From a virus: 29,849 nt of DNA. Shown here one piece after another: positions 6,974 through 12,799 of the stretch. The translations under genes and the position numbers were made by a program. Each line of letters begins with the position of its first letter. Positions within the stretch are counted from its first letter, which is position 1. The stretch lies in IMG/VR virus record IMGVR_UViG_3300030106_006402, positions 1 through 29,849 of that record; one strand, written 5' to 3'. The notes under the pieces are model-generated. The model was not told where the DNA came from. It ran no database searches and worked only from the letters and a program-made list of their open reading frames with translations.

Positions 6974-7810
6974 ATGGCACTCACCGATAGACTTGGTAAA
7001 TCTAAAACAATTGCCGAGATTAAATCAGCATTACTAAATCCTGCTCTAACATCACATTTTGATGTTGAAATTCCTTTCCCCTCTGAACTGAGGTCACTTC
7101 TTGGTGTTGAGCAGAGATCTTTTAATCTATCATGTAGTGAGGCAAGTCTTCCTGGTTCTCAGTTAGCAACTCTTGAGAATAATAATGATCGTACAGGTGT
7201 GACTGAGAAGCACGCATACAGAAGACAGTTTGATGATAGAATTGACCTAACATTTTATGTTGATGCAGATAAATATATGTCGATTCGTTTCTTTGAGAGA
7301 TGGATATCATTTATTATGAATGAAGATCAAGGTGGTCTTCAAGGTGGAGGACCATTAGTAGAGCAAGAACCAAACATTGCGTCAAGACATTATCACTATA
7401 GGGCGAGATATCCAAATGATTATATTATGGATCAGGGATTAAAAATTACAAAATTTGAAAGAAACTATCAAAACTCACTAGTTTACAATTTTGTAAGGGC
7501 TTTCCCTATTGCTGTTAATTCTATGCCCCTTTCTTATGATGCATCTTCATTATTGAAAGTGACTGTATCTATGAGTTATATTAGATACTATCTTAATAGA
7601 GTGATTAATCCTACTACACCATCCTCACCACCTACAGTTCCAGAGCAAGCACAACAAAATAGTTTAAACTTTTTTGATTCTAATGAAATTCTAAACACTG
7701 CTGGTCCTGGCACTCGATTTGCACCAACCGACTCTGCAACTGGATTTAGAGCTGTGGATGATGGTCCTCTATTAACAACAAGACAAGCATTGGGACTTGA
7801 TCCGATTTGA
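6974..7810 (+). CDS. 54: tail-tube-fold protein, probable baseplate tail tube initiator gp54
   Basis: This 278-aa protein has the tail-tube type of organisation: FDVEIPFPSEL near the N-terminus, SCSEASLPGSQLAT (the loop entered after the first strands), RQFDDRIDLTFYVDADKYMSIRFFERWISFI (a beta strand and helix typical of gp19/gp54), and a C-terminal FVRAFPIAVNSMPLSYDASSLLKVTVSMSYIRY strand pair. The last 60 residues are a Pro/Ser-rich tail. T4 gp54 (320 aa) sits on gp48 and starts tube polymerisation, and gp48 is encoded just across the divergent gap. The main alternative is a gp19-like tube protein. The fold is well supported, the exact gene name less so. It diverges from gp4 with only 31 bp between starts. 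Confidence 0.65.
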   Translation: MALTDRLGKSKTIAEIKSALLNPALTSHFDVEIPFPSELRSLLGVEQRSFNLSCSEASLPGSQLATLENNNDRTGVTEKHAYRRQFDDRIDLTFYVDADKYMSIRFFERWISFIMNEDQGGLQGGGPLVEQEPNIASRHYHYRARYPNDYIMDQGLKITKFERNYQNSLVYNFVRAFPIAVNSMPLSYDASSLLKVTVSMSYIRYYLNRVINPTTPSSPPTVPEQAQQNSLNFFDSNEILNTAGPGTRFAPTDSATGFRAVDDGPLLTTRQALGLDPI

Positions 7811-7861: not shown

Positions 7862-8581
7862 ATGCCTTTACCAAAGATTGCCACACCGGTATATGAACTT
7901 GAATTGCCATCTACAGGTGAGACAATTCAGTACAGACCTTTTCTTGTAAAAGAGGAGAAGGTTCTTGTGATTGCTTTAGAGAGCGAAGATACAAAGCAAA
8001 TCACAACGGCCATTAAGAATGTAATTAAGAATTGCATTCAAAGTAAGGGTATCAAAGTGGAAACTCTTCCAACTTTTGATATTGAATATTTGTTTTTGAA
8101 TATTCGTGGTAAGTCTGTTGGTGAAGAGATTGAAGTTAATGTAACATGTCCTGATGATGGAGTAACTCAAGTTCCTATTACAATCAATCTAGACGATATT
8201 CAAGTTCAGAAAAATGAGGAGCACACGAACAGGATTAAGTTAGATGATACCATCATGATGGAGATGAGGTATCCTTCTCTTGAACAATTTATTAAAAATA
8301 ATTTTAATTTTGAAGATGGTAATGCAATGGAACAATCTTTTGATTTGATTGCAACTTGTATTGATAAAATCTTTACTGAAGATGAAGTTTGGGCAGTAGA
8401 AGATTGCACTAAGAAAGAAATTGTAGAATTTCTTGAGCAAATGAACTCTTCTCAGTTTAAAGAGATTGAGAAGTTCTTTGAGACAATGCCTAAGTTGTCA
8501 CATTCAATTACGGTAAAAAACCCTAAGACAAAGAAAGAAAACGCGGTCGTAATTGAGGGATTAGCAGGTTTTTTCGCATAG
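7862..8581 (+). CDS. 26: baseplate hub assembly protein gp26 (tail assembly chaperone, short form)
   Basis: This 239-aa protein belongs to the T4 gp26-type baseplate family (T4: 208 aa). It opens MPLPKIATPVYELELPS with QYRPFLVKEEKVL close behind, then has LPTFDIEYLFLNIRGKSVGE (about 67-86), a cysteine in the CPDDG turn, and ends IEGLAGFFA, the family's hydrophobic C-terminus. T4 gp26 is needed for hub assembly. Its place immediately before the tape measure is that of the lambda G or Mu gp41 tail chaperones. The final codons GGT TTT TTC GCA TAG carry a canonical -1 slippery heptamer, described separately, so about 300 residues may be made in a minority of translation events by reading into the next frame. 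Confidence 0.85.
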   Translation: MPLPKIATPVYELELPSTGETIQYRPFLVKEEKVLVIALESEDTKQITTAIKNVIKNCIQSKGIKVETLPTFDIEYLFLNIRGKSVGEEIEVNVTCPDDGVTQVPITINLDDIQVQKNEEHTNRIKLDDTIMMEMRYPSLEQFIKNNFNFEDGNAMEQSFDLIATCIDKIFTEDEVWAVEDCTKKEIVEFLEQMNSSQFKEIEKFFETMPKLSHSITVKNPKTKKENAVVIEGLAGFFA

Positions 8582-8602
8582 CCCTGATCCATATGGATCT
8601 GG
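8556..8602 (+). promoter_or_regulatory. programmed -1 ribosomal frameshift signal (T TTT TTC plus stem-loop)
   Basis: Four elements lie in order. An SD-like AGGGA is at 8556-8560. The heptamer T TTT TTC is at 8569-8575, in phase with the gp26 codons TTT TTC. A 7-nt spacer containing the gp26 stop follows. Then comes a stem-loop at 8583-8602 (CC-T-GATCC, loop ATAT, GGATC-T-GG: seven pairs and one T-T mismatch). The -1 frame is open from the slip site through 8760. The ATG of the downstream frame lies in the hairpin and has no SD sequence. Confidence 0.7.
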
Positions 8603-8763
8603 AGAACTATTATAAACTTAACTTCGCCTTGATACAGTATCATAAATATTCATTAACTGAGATTGAAAACTTGATGCCTTGGGAACGAGACATCTATGTT
8701 GCACTACTACAACAGCATCTTGAGGAAGAAGAGTTAAAGCAAAAGCAAAGGAATGGCATCTAG
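8593..8763 (+). CDS. 51: gp51-like small frame; probably the C-terminal part of a gp26 frameshift fusion
   Basis: This 56-aa frame reads MDLENYYKLNFALIQYHKYSL, then TEIENLMPWERDIYVALLQQHLEEEE and ends RNGI. It lies in the -1 frame relative to gp26. It resembles short proteins annotated as baseplate hub assembly catalyst gp51 in cyanophages, and its W/Y-rich helix pair recalls the T domain of GT-type tail chaperones. T4 gp51 is 249 aa, so this is a small counterpart at most. Read from the slip site, translation from 7862 continues through RIALIH into this frame, giving 300 residues and stopping at 8761-8763. It overlaps the tape measure start (8753) by 11 nt. Independent initiation at 8593 looks weak. 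Confidence 0.72.
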   Translation: MDLENYYKLNFALIQYHKYSLTEIENLMPWERDIYVALLQQHLEEEELKQKQRNGI

Positions 8764-10852
8764 TAAATTCGGTTCTAAGTTTTTAGGTGAAGAAAGATAC
8801 CAGCAGTATGTTGATGAACTTACTGCTGAAGGGACCATTGATGGCGAGCCATTATCTTCTACTGAAAGAAAAGAAGGATTTAAGAAGAGAAACGATAAGA
8901 TAAACTTTCAAAATTTTATAGAAAAAGTTCTTGAAAGAAAAGAAAAAGCATCCGTATCTGGTGCTGGTGCTGGTGCTGGTGCTTTAGTAAAAAGACCATC
9001 TTCAGCAATACAAGTAAGTAAAATTGTTCCTGAGACTACCCCTGATGGTGGTATACTTGAAGAGATATTGAAAATTGTCACGTCTATTCGTGATACCTTG
9101 ATAGATAAGAATAAATTTGATGTAGCACAATCTAAAAAAGATAGACAGTTTGCTGAAAGAAAAAGAAGAGGAGAAAAAGAAAATAAATTAGAATCTAATA
9201 CCTTTGCTGGATTAACAAAAGGAGTAAATAAAGTTCTCGCACCAGTCAAAGGATTGTTTGAAAAAGTATTCGACTTCATTAAGACAGTTGTACTGGGAAG
9301 AGTTGTTGTAACTTTGATTAAATGGTTTACTGATGACGAAAATAAAGAAAAGGTAGAAGCAATTGGCACGTTCTTAAAGAAAACATGGCCAGCATTACTT
9401 GCTGCGTATCTACTGTTTGGTAATAGTCTTGGTAGATTTGTAACCAAGATAGTTTTCATGATTGGTAAATTTACTACCAAACTTATATCTAAAGGAATAC
9501 CAAAACTTCTTAAGTTGATAGCAGCAAATCCTCTTGCATCAGCAGCACTTGCCATTGTTACTGCTGCTACCATCGGTGGCATCAGACAATCTCAAACTCC
9601 ATCAAATGATCCAGAAGCAGAACCAGGACAAACTCAATTAGATGACACTCAAGATTTTGGTGGAATAACTGGTGCTCCAATCAGTGCGGACATGCTTGGA
9701 TTTAGTGGTGGTGGCATGACACCAATGGGAACAGATACAGTTCCTGCTATGCTTACTCCGGGTGAGTTTGTTATGAGTCGTGGTGCTGTCAATACTTTTG
9801 GTTCTGATTTCATGGAGACGATTAATGCTGCAGGTGGTGGAACAAATCAACCAAAAGGTGGATACTATTCTTCTGGTGGTAGTGTGTCTGATAAAGAAGA
9901 ACCTGGAGGAAGAAATAAAACAGGAACAGAAAAACCTAAACCTAATAGAAACATCCTTACTTCTTTATTTGGTGGCAGATCTAGAAATAATAAAGATGAA
10001 GTTGCAAGTAGTTGGAAATCAGTGCTAGATTTAATTGCAAAATATGAAGCAGTTAATGGTTCATATGACTCAATATACCCATCTAGTACAAAACCAGGTT
10101 TATCTCAAATGACAATAGAAGAGGCTGATAATTGGCAGTCATCAACAGCATCTTCTAGAGGATCTGCTGCTGCGGGTCGCTATCAATTCATGTATATAAA
10201 AAATCAAGCAGCAGCTGCTGGGATCGCACCAGATGAAAAGTTTAGTCCAGAAAATCAGGACAAGATGGCTATTCACCTTATTGAAGGTAAGAGAGGTATT
10301 ACTTATGATATGATGAAGAATAATCCAAATGAGGCAATGATTCGTCTTGGAATGGAATGGGCGTCTCTTCCAATGCCGATAGGAATGCAAGGACATAGAG
10401 GATATGTTCAAGCAGGGCAATCATATTATGCTGGAGATGGTAGAAATGCGGCACACGCATCTATACAAGAAGTTCGTGATGCCATGAGAGGTATTTCACC
10501 TGCTGTAGGTGAAGGTTCATCCTCTGGTACTATTGCTAAGGCCACTAGTAGTGGTAGTGTTTCCTCATCTACAGGATCTACTGCTACTGCTACAACTACA
10601 AAAACTCAAACGGCTCCATTACCGAAATTTAATTATGAACAACTAAGAAAAGATTTGGGTGTAAGAACAGCGTCTGTTTCTAAATCATCACGACCGTCGT
10701 CTACTTCTGCATATTCTCAAATGCAAGGTGATACCTCACAGGCAGCACAAATACAGAATTCAAATAATGATGCTTCAGGTGATGTTCCTTCATTTGATGC
10801 GGCTGCAATGTCTTCTCCAAAGAAGATAAAAACTTTAGGAATAACGGTGTAA
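8753..10852 (+). CDS. tape-measure-like tail protein with lysozyme/transglycosylase domain
   Basis: This 699-aa protein follows the tail chaperone genes, where a tape measure is expected. Residues 1-160 are charged and helical with a GAGAGAGA run at 70-77. Hydrophobic segments are at about 212-238 and 257-276. DTVPAMLTPGEFVMSRGAV at 328-346 is a motif common in tape measures and tail tip proteins. Residues about 423-585 look like a small muramidase or lytic transglycosylase: LIAKYE with E432 as candidate catalytic acid, AAGRYQF (473-479), FSPENQDKMAIHLI (497-510). A Ser/Thr-rich linker and tail follow. At the usual ~1.5 angstrom per residue, 699 residues would measure about 105 nm, close to a T4-like tail. 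The role as gp29 equivalent is inferred from position and domains; cell-wall cutting during infection would explain the enzyme domain. Confidence 0.75.
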   Translation: MASSKFGSKFLGEERYQQYVDELTAEGTIDGEPLSSTERKEGFKKRNDKINFQNFIEKVLERKEKASVSGAGAGAGALVKRPSSAIQVSKIVPETTPDGGILEEILKIVTSIRDTLIDKNKFDVAQSKKDRQFAERKRRGEKENKLESNTFAGLTKGVNKVLAPVKGLFEKVFDFIKTVVLGRVVVTLIKWFTDDENKEKVEAIGTFLKKTWPALLAAYLLFGNSLGRFVTKIVFMIGKFTTKLISKGIPKLLKLIAANPLASAALAIVTAATIGGIRQSQTPSNDPEAEPGQTQLDDTQDFGGITGAPISADMLGFSGGGMTPMGTDTVPAMLTPGEFVMSRGAVNTFGSDFMETINAAGGGTNQPKGGYYSSGGSVSDKEEPGGRNKTGTEKPKPNRNILTSLFGGRSRNNKDEVASSWKSVLDLIAKYEAVNGSYDSIYPSSTKPGLSQMTIEEADNWQSSTASSRGSAAAGRYQFMYIKNQAAAAGIAPDEKFSPENQDKMAIHLIEGKRGITYDMMKNNPNEAMIRLGMEWASLPMPIGMQGHRGYVQAGQSYYAGDGRNAAHASIQEVRDAMRGISPAVGEGSSSGTIAKATSSGSVSSSTGSTATATTTKTQTAPLPKFNYEQLRKDLGVRTASVSKSSRPSSTSAYSQMQGDTSQAAQIQNSNNDASGDVPSFDAAAMSSPKKIKTLGITV

Positions 10853-10855
10853 TCT

Positions 10856-12799
10856 ATGGCAATCACCGCTCAGAAGTTATTTCCTCAAAGTAAAAGTGGA
10901 GCAACAACTCCAACTCCAATAAGGAAAAATGCTATTACAAGAATTACACCAATAGCAACAAAGAAACCTGCCGCAGATGAGGGAGAAGATAAAGATACTC
11001 TTGTAGTCATAAAAGAAAGATGTATTGAAATAGATACTCTTTTGAAAGGTTCTCTTACACTTGATAAAATTAGAGCAGAGGAAGCAAGAAAGAAAAAGCA
11101 AACTCAAAGACGTGCTGCAAATGAAGCACGATTGGAATCTAAAGATAAAGGTAAAGAAGAAAGAGGATTTGGATTGAAACTTCCCAGGATGGGATTCTTT
11201 GATCGTATAAAGGAGTTTATCAAGAATGTTCTTCTTGGTTTTATTTTAACAAGACTAATTAAATTTGCACCATTACTTCAGAGGATAGTTCCTTTTCTTT
11301 CAGGTGCTATTGATTTTATGACTGACTTTGTAACAGGTTTAGTCGATGGACTTGGTACATTTTTAAAGTGGGGATTTGATGCTTATGAAAAAACAGAGGA
11401 ATTTATAGACAATATTGGTGGTGAAGATGCGGTGGGAGCATTTAATAAATTTACCGGTGCTTTAGAAAAGTTTCTTAGTCTTGCATTGATTGCAGGTCTT
11501 GCAACTGGTGCATTAGAGGTAGAAAAAAATAAAGGTGGTAGAGGCGGACGTGGTGGTAGAGGTGGACTTGGTGGTAGAGGTGGTAGACCAGGGGCAATAA
11601 GAAGATTTACTAAAAAGTATGGTAGAGATGCTGCGATTAAAAGATTTGGAAAAGAAGCAGTAAGAAAATTTGGTGGAAGTGCTGGTAGATCTGCTGCTAC
11701 AAATCTTGCAAGACGAGGACTGGTTGGTGCCCTTGGAAAAGGTGGAACAAGAGCTGGACTTAGGTTTGTCAAGAAATTCATCAGTCCTATTGTAAAGAGA
11801 ATACCTATTCTTGGGGGTCTCATTGATTTTGCACTAAACTATTTTGTATTCAAAGAACCAATTGGTAGAGCTGCATTTGCTGCGATTGGTGCTACAATCC
11901 TTGGTGTAATTGGAACTGGATTTGGTGGACCTCTTGGTGCGATAATTGGTGGATTCGTTGGCGATGCTGCTGGTAAAAAACTTTATGATATTTTCTTCTC
12001 TGGCAAGAAACCTGTTGAAATTGAAGATGATCAGAAGGATCAGAAGCAGGATAAATCAGTAAAATCTACTACATCATATTCTCAAGGAAAGCAAGGTAAA
12101 TTTGATATAAAAAGTAGTAATAATATCGTAAACATTGGTAAGAATCTTGTTAGTAAAGGATTCTCTGTTGCAGAACACCCAGACTTTACTAAGACTCCAA
12201 CAGCATCTGGTGGAACATATACTCCTGGTGAGGGATCAGTATCTAATGTGCATAGTGGTGATGGTCACTATGAATCTAGAGCAATTGATGTTACTGATTG
12301 GAGAGGAACACTTGAAGACTCTAAGGCAAGGTATCGTTCTGTCTTAGATTCGATTTATAACAATGGTAATATGGCAAACGATATGTTACTTATTCATGAT
12401 AGTTGGGGTGTTGCTGATAAGAGTGGGAAAAATCCACCAGGGAGACATGGACACCCAACTCACATGCACATTGAGGTGAAGGATAAGGGTGGATTCATTG
12501 GTAAAGGACTATTCCAAAACAAAGGTGGTATGGAGTTTGTTCTTGATCATGACACCACAAAAGCAGTCGAGGAAACATTCCCTGGATTCTTGAATACGTT
12601 TAACAAGGCAGAAGGTAAAGATGCTGTTGATGTTCTCAAACAATATGCATCTTATGATATGCCAGAGATGATCCCAGTTCCTATTCCAGTGCCAATCCAA
12701 AATGCAACTGGTAATATGTATGAAAAAGGAAAATCAGCAACTGTTAATATCGTCGTTAAGGGAAAGGAATCATTCAATGATATCCTTTATATGCGTTAA
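10856..12799 (+). CDS. second tape-measure-like tail protein with M15-type peptidase domain
   Basis: This 647-aa protein starts 3 nt after the previous gene and has a parallel design: a charged N-terminus (to about 110), hydrophobic helices (about 123-175, 203-220), an arginine/glycine tract at 226-246, and a glycine-zipper-like membrane segment (about 336-372, with IGTGFGG and AIIGGFVG). Residues about 424-545 resemble a zinc D,D- or L,D-peptidase of the M15 type: H471-x6-D478 in HYESRAIDV, and HMHIE with H536/H538/E540, plus conserved W and D positions between. After that come GGFIGKGLFQNKGG and a helical tail. The likely role is puncture of the cell envelope, cutting peptide cross-links while the sister protein cuts glycan. 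The peptidase call rests on motif spacing only. Confidence 0.7.
   Translation: MAITAQKLFPQSKSGATTPTPIRKNAITRITPIATKKPAADEGEDKDTLVVIKERCIEIDTLLKGSLTLDKIRAEEARKKKQTQRRAANEARLESKDKGKEERGFGLKLPRMGFFDRIKEFIKNVLLGFILTRLIKFAPLLQRIVPFLSGAIDFMTDFVTGLVDGLGTFLKWGFDAYEKTEEFIDNIGGEDAVGAFNKFTGALEKFLSLALIAGLATGALEVEKNKGGRGGRGGRGGLGGRGGRPGAIRRFTKKYGRDAAIKRFGKEAVRKFGGSAGRSAATNLARRGLVGALGKGGTRAGLRFVKKFISPIVKRIPILGGLIDFALNYFVFKEPIGRAAFAAIGATILGVIGTGFGGPLGAIIGGFVGDAAGKKLYDIFFSGKKPVEIEDDQKDQKQDKSVKSTTSYSQGKQGKFDIKSSNNIVNIGKNLVSKGFSVAEHPDFTKTPTASGGTYTPGEGSVSNVHSGDGHYESRAIDVTDWRGTLEDSKARYRSVLDSIYNNGNMANDMLLIHDSWGVADKSGKNPPGRHGHPTHMHIEVKDKGGFIGKGLFQNKGGMEFVLDHDTTKAVEETFPGFLNTFNKAEGKDAVDVLKQYASYDMPEMIPVPIPVPIQNATGNMYEKGKSATVNIVVKGKESFNDILYMR
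11531..11593 (+). repeat. GGR/RGG low-complexity tract inside the second tape-measure-like gene
   Basis: About 21 codons encode repeated Gly-Gly-Arg units (GGRGGRGGRGG, then GGRGGR). The DNA is a degenerate run of GGTGGTAGA-type 9-mers, so it can expand or contract by slippage. RGG boxes bind nucleic acid or membranes in other proteins; here the role is unknown. Confidence 0.8.

Follow-up and report, generated by a model that had tools for sequence, protein, structure and literature searches.

The window analysed here is the whole of a 29,849-nucleotide (nt) stretch, positions 1 to 29,849 of the 32.8-kb IMG/VR virus record IMGVR_UViG_3300030106_006402, and it comes from a marine T4-like cyanophage whose nearest annotated relative in the gp26 region is Synechococcus phage S-SM2. 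On the plus strand, positions 7862..8581 encode gp26, a protein of 239 amino acids (aa) that we identify as the short tail assembly chaperone (TAC-N). Around the end of this gene, and on the same strand, lie a Shine-Dalgarno (SD)-like AGGGA (8556..8560), a -1 slippery heptamer T TTT TTC (8569..8575), a stem-loop (8583..8602), and a -1 frame of 62 codons plus stop (8575..8763) which would specify the C-terminal domain of a 300-aa long chaperone (TAC-NC). The AGGGA and the stem-loop are probable stimulators of frameshifting. We consider it very probable that a pair of tail chaperones of the lambda G/GT type is made here from one gene by -1 frameshifting at TTTTTTC.

Read directly, the last codons of gp26 are GGT TTT TTC GCA TAG, and a -1 slip on 8569-8575 would re-pair TTT/TTC onto TTT/TTT. 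The -1 frame begins with CGC at 8575 and ends at a stop at 8761-8763; its fusion with gp26 amounts to 300 aa. A sequence-only reading of this DNA had placed the heptamer in -1 phase at the gp26 end, with an AGGGA 8 nt before it, a stem-loop starting 7 nt after it, a -1 frame open for 62 codons leading to a 300-aa product, and the ATG of the downstream frame within the hairpin. Direct reading bore out each of these features; RNAfold puts the stem-loop exactly at 8583-8602, and the ATG, at 8593, sits inside it.

An IMG/VR search with the gp26 protein alone gave 80 close loci of 68-91% identity (for the junction counts, 79 loci reaching the junction plus the window). These loci share kinship, so that the counts are not independent events; other synonymous sites of gp26 do vary. 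The heptamer T TTT TTC is found one codon ahead of the gp26 stop in 80/80 loci. In the same loci, TTC is the minor Phe codon (21% of Phe), and other Phe-Phe pairs are spelled TTT TTC in 14 of 284 cases. Four of the 99 conserved degenerate gp26 codons are invariant; two of them are the slip codons, 237 and 238, and the other two are TTT, while eight further conserved Phe positions switch between TTT and TTC. The SD-like element is similarly constrained: AGGG is kept in all 80 loci, the Glu-Gly pair always being spelled GAG GGN or GAA GGG, as against 136 of 318 Glu-Gly pairs (43%) elsewhere.

The comparison of this junction across T4-like phages that the sequence-only reading had put forward as a check was run on a wide set of 334 usable T4-superfamily loci, which were picked for the similarity of their gp26, without regard to the junction. 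This set adds three IMG/VR scans with the gp26 of P-HM2, S-RIM12 and Melnitz-3, together with named-phage junctions that were read singly; a related-locus search with a Vibrio gp26 as query found no loci. It spans Prochlorococcus and Synechococcus phages, the Methylophilales phage Melnitz-3, Caulobacter phage Cr30, Sinorhizobium phage phiM19, Rhizobium phages, Delftia phage PhiW-14, a CC2-like Aeromonas phage and a large Vibrio phage. Heptamer, phase and -1 relation are kept throughout: an in-phase T TTT TTN stands at the gp26 end in 334/334 loci, starting 7 or 10 nt before the gp26 stop in all except two, and the complete -1 frames are open in 324 of 324 cases, with lengths of 58-70 codons and 254 distinct peptides. 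The SD-like element reads AGGG in 248 of the 334 loci, and another SD-like tetramer is present in 81. Because T TTT TTC occurs in 80/80 close loci against 14/284 elsewhere, and T TTT TTN in 334/334 loci of the wide set, the heptamer is conserved beyond chance. In Rhizobium phage RHph_I1_18 (L086 2195-2215), we also observed T TTT TTA AAC, which makes two slippery heptamers, overlapping and both in phase, about 11 codons ahead of the stop of gp26.

Databases annotate the small open reading frame (ORF) as a gene of its own. Under such an arrangement, gp26 and a 56-aa gp51 would be separate proteins, the latter started at ATG 8593 through translational coupling or through re-initiation once gp26 had been terminated, with no fusion made; the presence of an ATG at -1 codon 8 in 76 of the 80 close loci agrees with it. 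However, 144 of the 324 complete -1 frames contain no ATG, GTG or TTG within their first 15 codons, and 179 have no ATG. The peptide just after the slip is conserved (FFR.AL.H..L..YY..NF), in many loci ahead of any possible start, and because 144 loci lack a start in the first 15 codons, separate initiation cannot make it there. In addition, the -1 frame is conserved in the residues that precede the ATG, TTTTTTC is invariant in the close relatives, the ATG lies in the hairpin, and S-CAM4 and Syn30 are without any annotated gp51. Two separate genes are thus a highly improbable explanation, and the conserved post-slip peptide preceding any possible start is the strongest argument against separate initiation.

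The run of six T raises another option, namely that RNA polymerase gains or loses a U at the poly-T so that the long form is translated from a shifted mRNA. Bacteria are known to show transcriptional slippage on homopolymer runs. However, the commonest form of the run has just six T and longer runs are not favoured, and the strict T TTT TTN codon phase, together with an SD-like element and a hairpin whose spacing suits a ribosome, speaks for the ribosome; we regard slippage during transcription as very doubtful.

The stem-loop at 8583-8602 consists of 5 base pairs (bp) plus 2 bp across a T-T mismatch, has the loop ATAT, and folds with -9.5 kcal/mol (RNAfold, 48-nt window). In most of the 80 close loci, the 28 nt that follow the spacer fold more stably than synonymous recodings that preserve the -1 peptide (median percentile 0.018, 74% of loci at or below 0.1, mean z -2.6), and stems of unrelated sequence are found at the same place in P-SSM2, P-HM2, S-CAM4, MA01 and Cr30. 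Other potential structures were observed within gp26, including two 11-bp inverted repeats (8448-8473 and 7935-7963) and a 28-nt stretch lying about 120 nt ahead of the slip site that has an unusually stable fold in 30 relatives (mean z -2.8).

Some observations weigh against frameshifting as described above, or against parts of it. The pairing of the stem is only partly kept, at 78-97% per pair, and exceeds independence mainly at two of the five positions. Since pair-by-pair covariation is weak, our claim for the hairpin is based on the recoding folds and on the unrelated hairpins at the same place. No strong hairpin was found close by in several distant phages (RHph_I1_9, Asswx_1 and Syn30), and we therefore view the hairpin as a probable stimulator in this clade and not as a universal part. 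Vibrio phage D508, which is outside the wide set (L091 2130-2180), keeps the -1 overlap and not the T6 heptamer: its junction has CTT TTC in that place and an ATG at the stop (TAATG), which may reflect coupling or a different slip site. Finally, because most close relatives have the hairpin ATG, this phage could make some small product separately. Phages with this ATG could thus make both the frameshifted long form and a free 56-aa C-terminal domain, and the retention of the ATG in close relatives is in line with this. However, the hairpin ATG is missing in the close loci L039, L051 and L072 as well as in many distant relatives, so that a free 56-aa form is not a conserved need, and we consider the production of both forms unlikely.

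Frameshifting, as used by lambda for G and GT, is what the sequence-only reading had suggested, and it stands as the best reading of the locus, given that heptamer, phase and -1 relation are kept in 334/334 loci and that every complete -1 frame is open. From the anatomy of the junction, its conservation, the homology with T4 gp26 and gp51 and the likeness of fold, we infer that ribosomes slip here, together with the rate of slipping and the binding partners of the products. Most ribosomes would end at 8579 and yield the 239-aa short form, whereas a minority would slip back one base on T TTT TTC, as tRNA-Phe shifts its pairing from TTT/TTC to TTT/TTT. Both the AGGGA before the site and the hairpin after it would aid the slip, and the ribosomes that slipped would read 62 more codons and so complete the long form of 300 aa. 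If lambda G/GT is a guide, many short and few long copies might then surround the tape measure protein and bring in tail tube subunits; the domain shared by both forms would coat the tape measure, and the extra helical domain of the long form would make contact with the tail tube subunit, as the T part does in lambda GT.

The identification of gp26 as a chaperone is based on its sequence family and its predicted fold. It matches PF12322 with an E-value of 1.3e-77 over the full domain (2-219/219) and phrog_150 with 6e-83, and the -1 extension matches phrog_634 and the tail of phrog_150. In the case of the AF2 model (pLDDT 85), the top VIA matches of residues 1-92 are 3fgx (Z 8.0), the HK97 tail assembly chaperone 2ob9 (Z 7.8) and YqbN 3klu (Z 7.4), with 5ir0 (Z 5.2) and a row of 2.8 ranking below them. 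We take 3fgx and 3klu to be chaperones of the tail assembly type. A Z around 8 can reflect a common arrangement, and Foldseek on its own gave weak matches, with E near 1, of which 3fgx and 2ob9 were the only ones with a probability >0.5. It is nevertheless telling that phage chaperone-type proteins head the list. The HK97 chaperone aligns with residues 1-86 of the gp26 model over 84 residues (root mean square deviation 3.3) and differs in having 8% identity and a solved chain of 107 residues, which is without a counterpart of the C-terminal half of gp26. A sequence-profile search of solved structures found no relative.

The relationship with T4 genes 26 and 51 gives further insight into the two forms. 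Gene 51 of T4 relatives, divergent from gene 26, has a product of about 249 aa; PF12322 is matched by T4-type gp26 (E 2e-63) and by the first 200 residues of gp51 (E 4e-54). The cyanophage gp26 profile aligns with residues 8-199 of T4 gp51 (E 7e-6), and the profile of the -1 peptide aligns with residues 200-247 (E 6e-9), and these two alignments abut where the slip joins gp26 to the -1 peptide. BLASTP of the small frame against T4 gp51 gave no alignment; the profile comparison alone found one. Because gp51 aligns end to end with the fusion, T4 encodes the short form (26) and the long form (51) as two genes. The sequence-only reading had described the product as a gp26-gp51-like fusion. The fusion is supported, and the small ORF is not the counterpart of the whole of T4 gp51, which is instead the long form in one frame, with a gp26-like domain (8-199) followed by the domain of the small ORF (200-247). 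T4 gp51 is reported to be required although the particle does not contain it, and both gp26 and gp51 have been classed as hub assembly chaperones (PMC3004832). With the model of a T4-type gp51, Foldseek found nothing significant in the PDB, and VIA-align gave only matches with Z < 5. In a tree of 26 PF12322 domains, T4-type gp26 and T4-type gp51 form two separate groups (100/99 each), as would be expected for two genes that parted long ago; this tree has long branches and a midpoint root and does not fix the order of the split and the frameshift lineages.

Directly upstream of gp26, on the plus strand, the tail tube gene (6974..7810) is clear from its matches to phrog_45 (tail tube, 1e-35) and Pfam PF23849. 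Directly after the chaperone frames, an ORF of 699 aa (8753..10852, plus strand) probably encodes the tape measure or tail lysin protein; its identification as tape measure is weak (phrog_35029, phrog_90 and weak tape-measure PHROGs), and its product is the probable client of the chaperones. This ORF and the large one that follows it (10856-12799) both show weak likeness to tape measure or tail lysin PHROGs.

As the sequence-only reading had supposed, the frameshift is not normally annotated in cyanophages: the records examined give two separate genes, a truncated gp51 or none. In public records, gp51 either begins at an internal ATG and is thereby cut short (30 aa in P-HM2) or is unannotated (S-CAM4, Syn30), which hides the junction peptide (L083 2289-2381, L098 2262-2399, L084 2214-2393 and L097 1513-1694). 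It is likely that, in cyanophages and their marine relatives, a three-part cassette composed of the SD-like AGGG, T TTT TTN and a hairpin kept in place and not in sequence is constrained beyond the coding of both frames, that there is no separate gp51, and that the 30-60 aa annotations as "baseplate hub assembly catalyst" are fragments of the frameshift product. This would correct a standing annotation error in many cyanophage genomes, in which the small "gp51" is very probably the frameshift-encoded end of the long tail chaperone. It also fits in T4, the textbook exception to the frameshift rule, whose genes 26 and 51 are two copies that hold what related phages obtain from a single gene.

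On both points, the analysis follows or extends published work. Vladimirov, Gautam and Davidson (2022, Virology 566:9-15) reportedly found conserved frameshifting in several groups of T4-like phages, with T4 itself relying on genes 26 and 51. The supposition that the strategy is new for the T4-like lineage thus did not hold, as the arrangement was described in 2022. According to papers citing that work, a short gene and a longer fusion gene take the place of the frameshift in some T4-like phages (PMC10885494), and TAC-N genes of T4-like phages have poly-T slippery sequences (PMC12846349). The present locus is thus a further instance of the published case, with the same gp26/gp51 family, a poly-T -1 slip at the end of the short form and the same products. 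In the literature searched, we found no report that names cyanophages as users of the frameshift. The present analysis contributes the wide survey, the finding that the SD-like element and hairpin are constrained, and the argument from start codons.

T4 itself differs in having two genes, 26 for the short and the divergent 51 for the long form, and no slip. Lambda slips on a heptamer other than T TTT TTC, and the slip of E/E+E' in phage P2 occurs on T TTT TTG. P2 resembles the present phage in its contractile tail, its T TTT TTN heptamer and the position of the chaperone ahead of the tape measure. The likeness to lambda gpG/gpGT lies in the low-level long form (PMC5009743); in lambda, the ratio of short to long is about 30:1 and neither product is found in virions, and the frameshift rate of P2 is 2-3 fold above that of lambda (PMC5009743).
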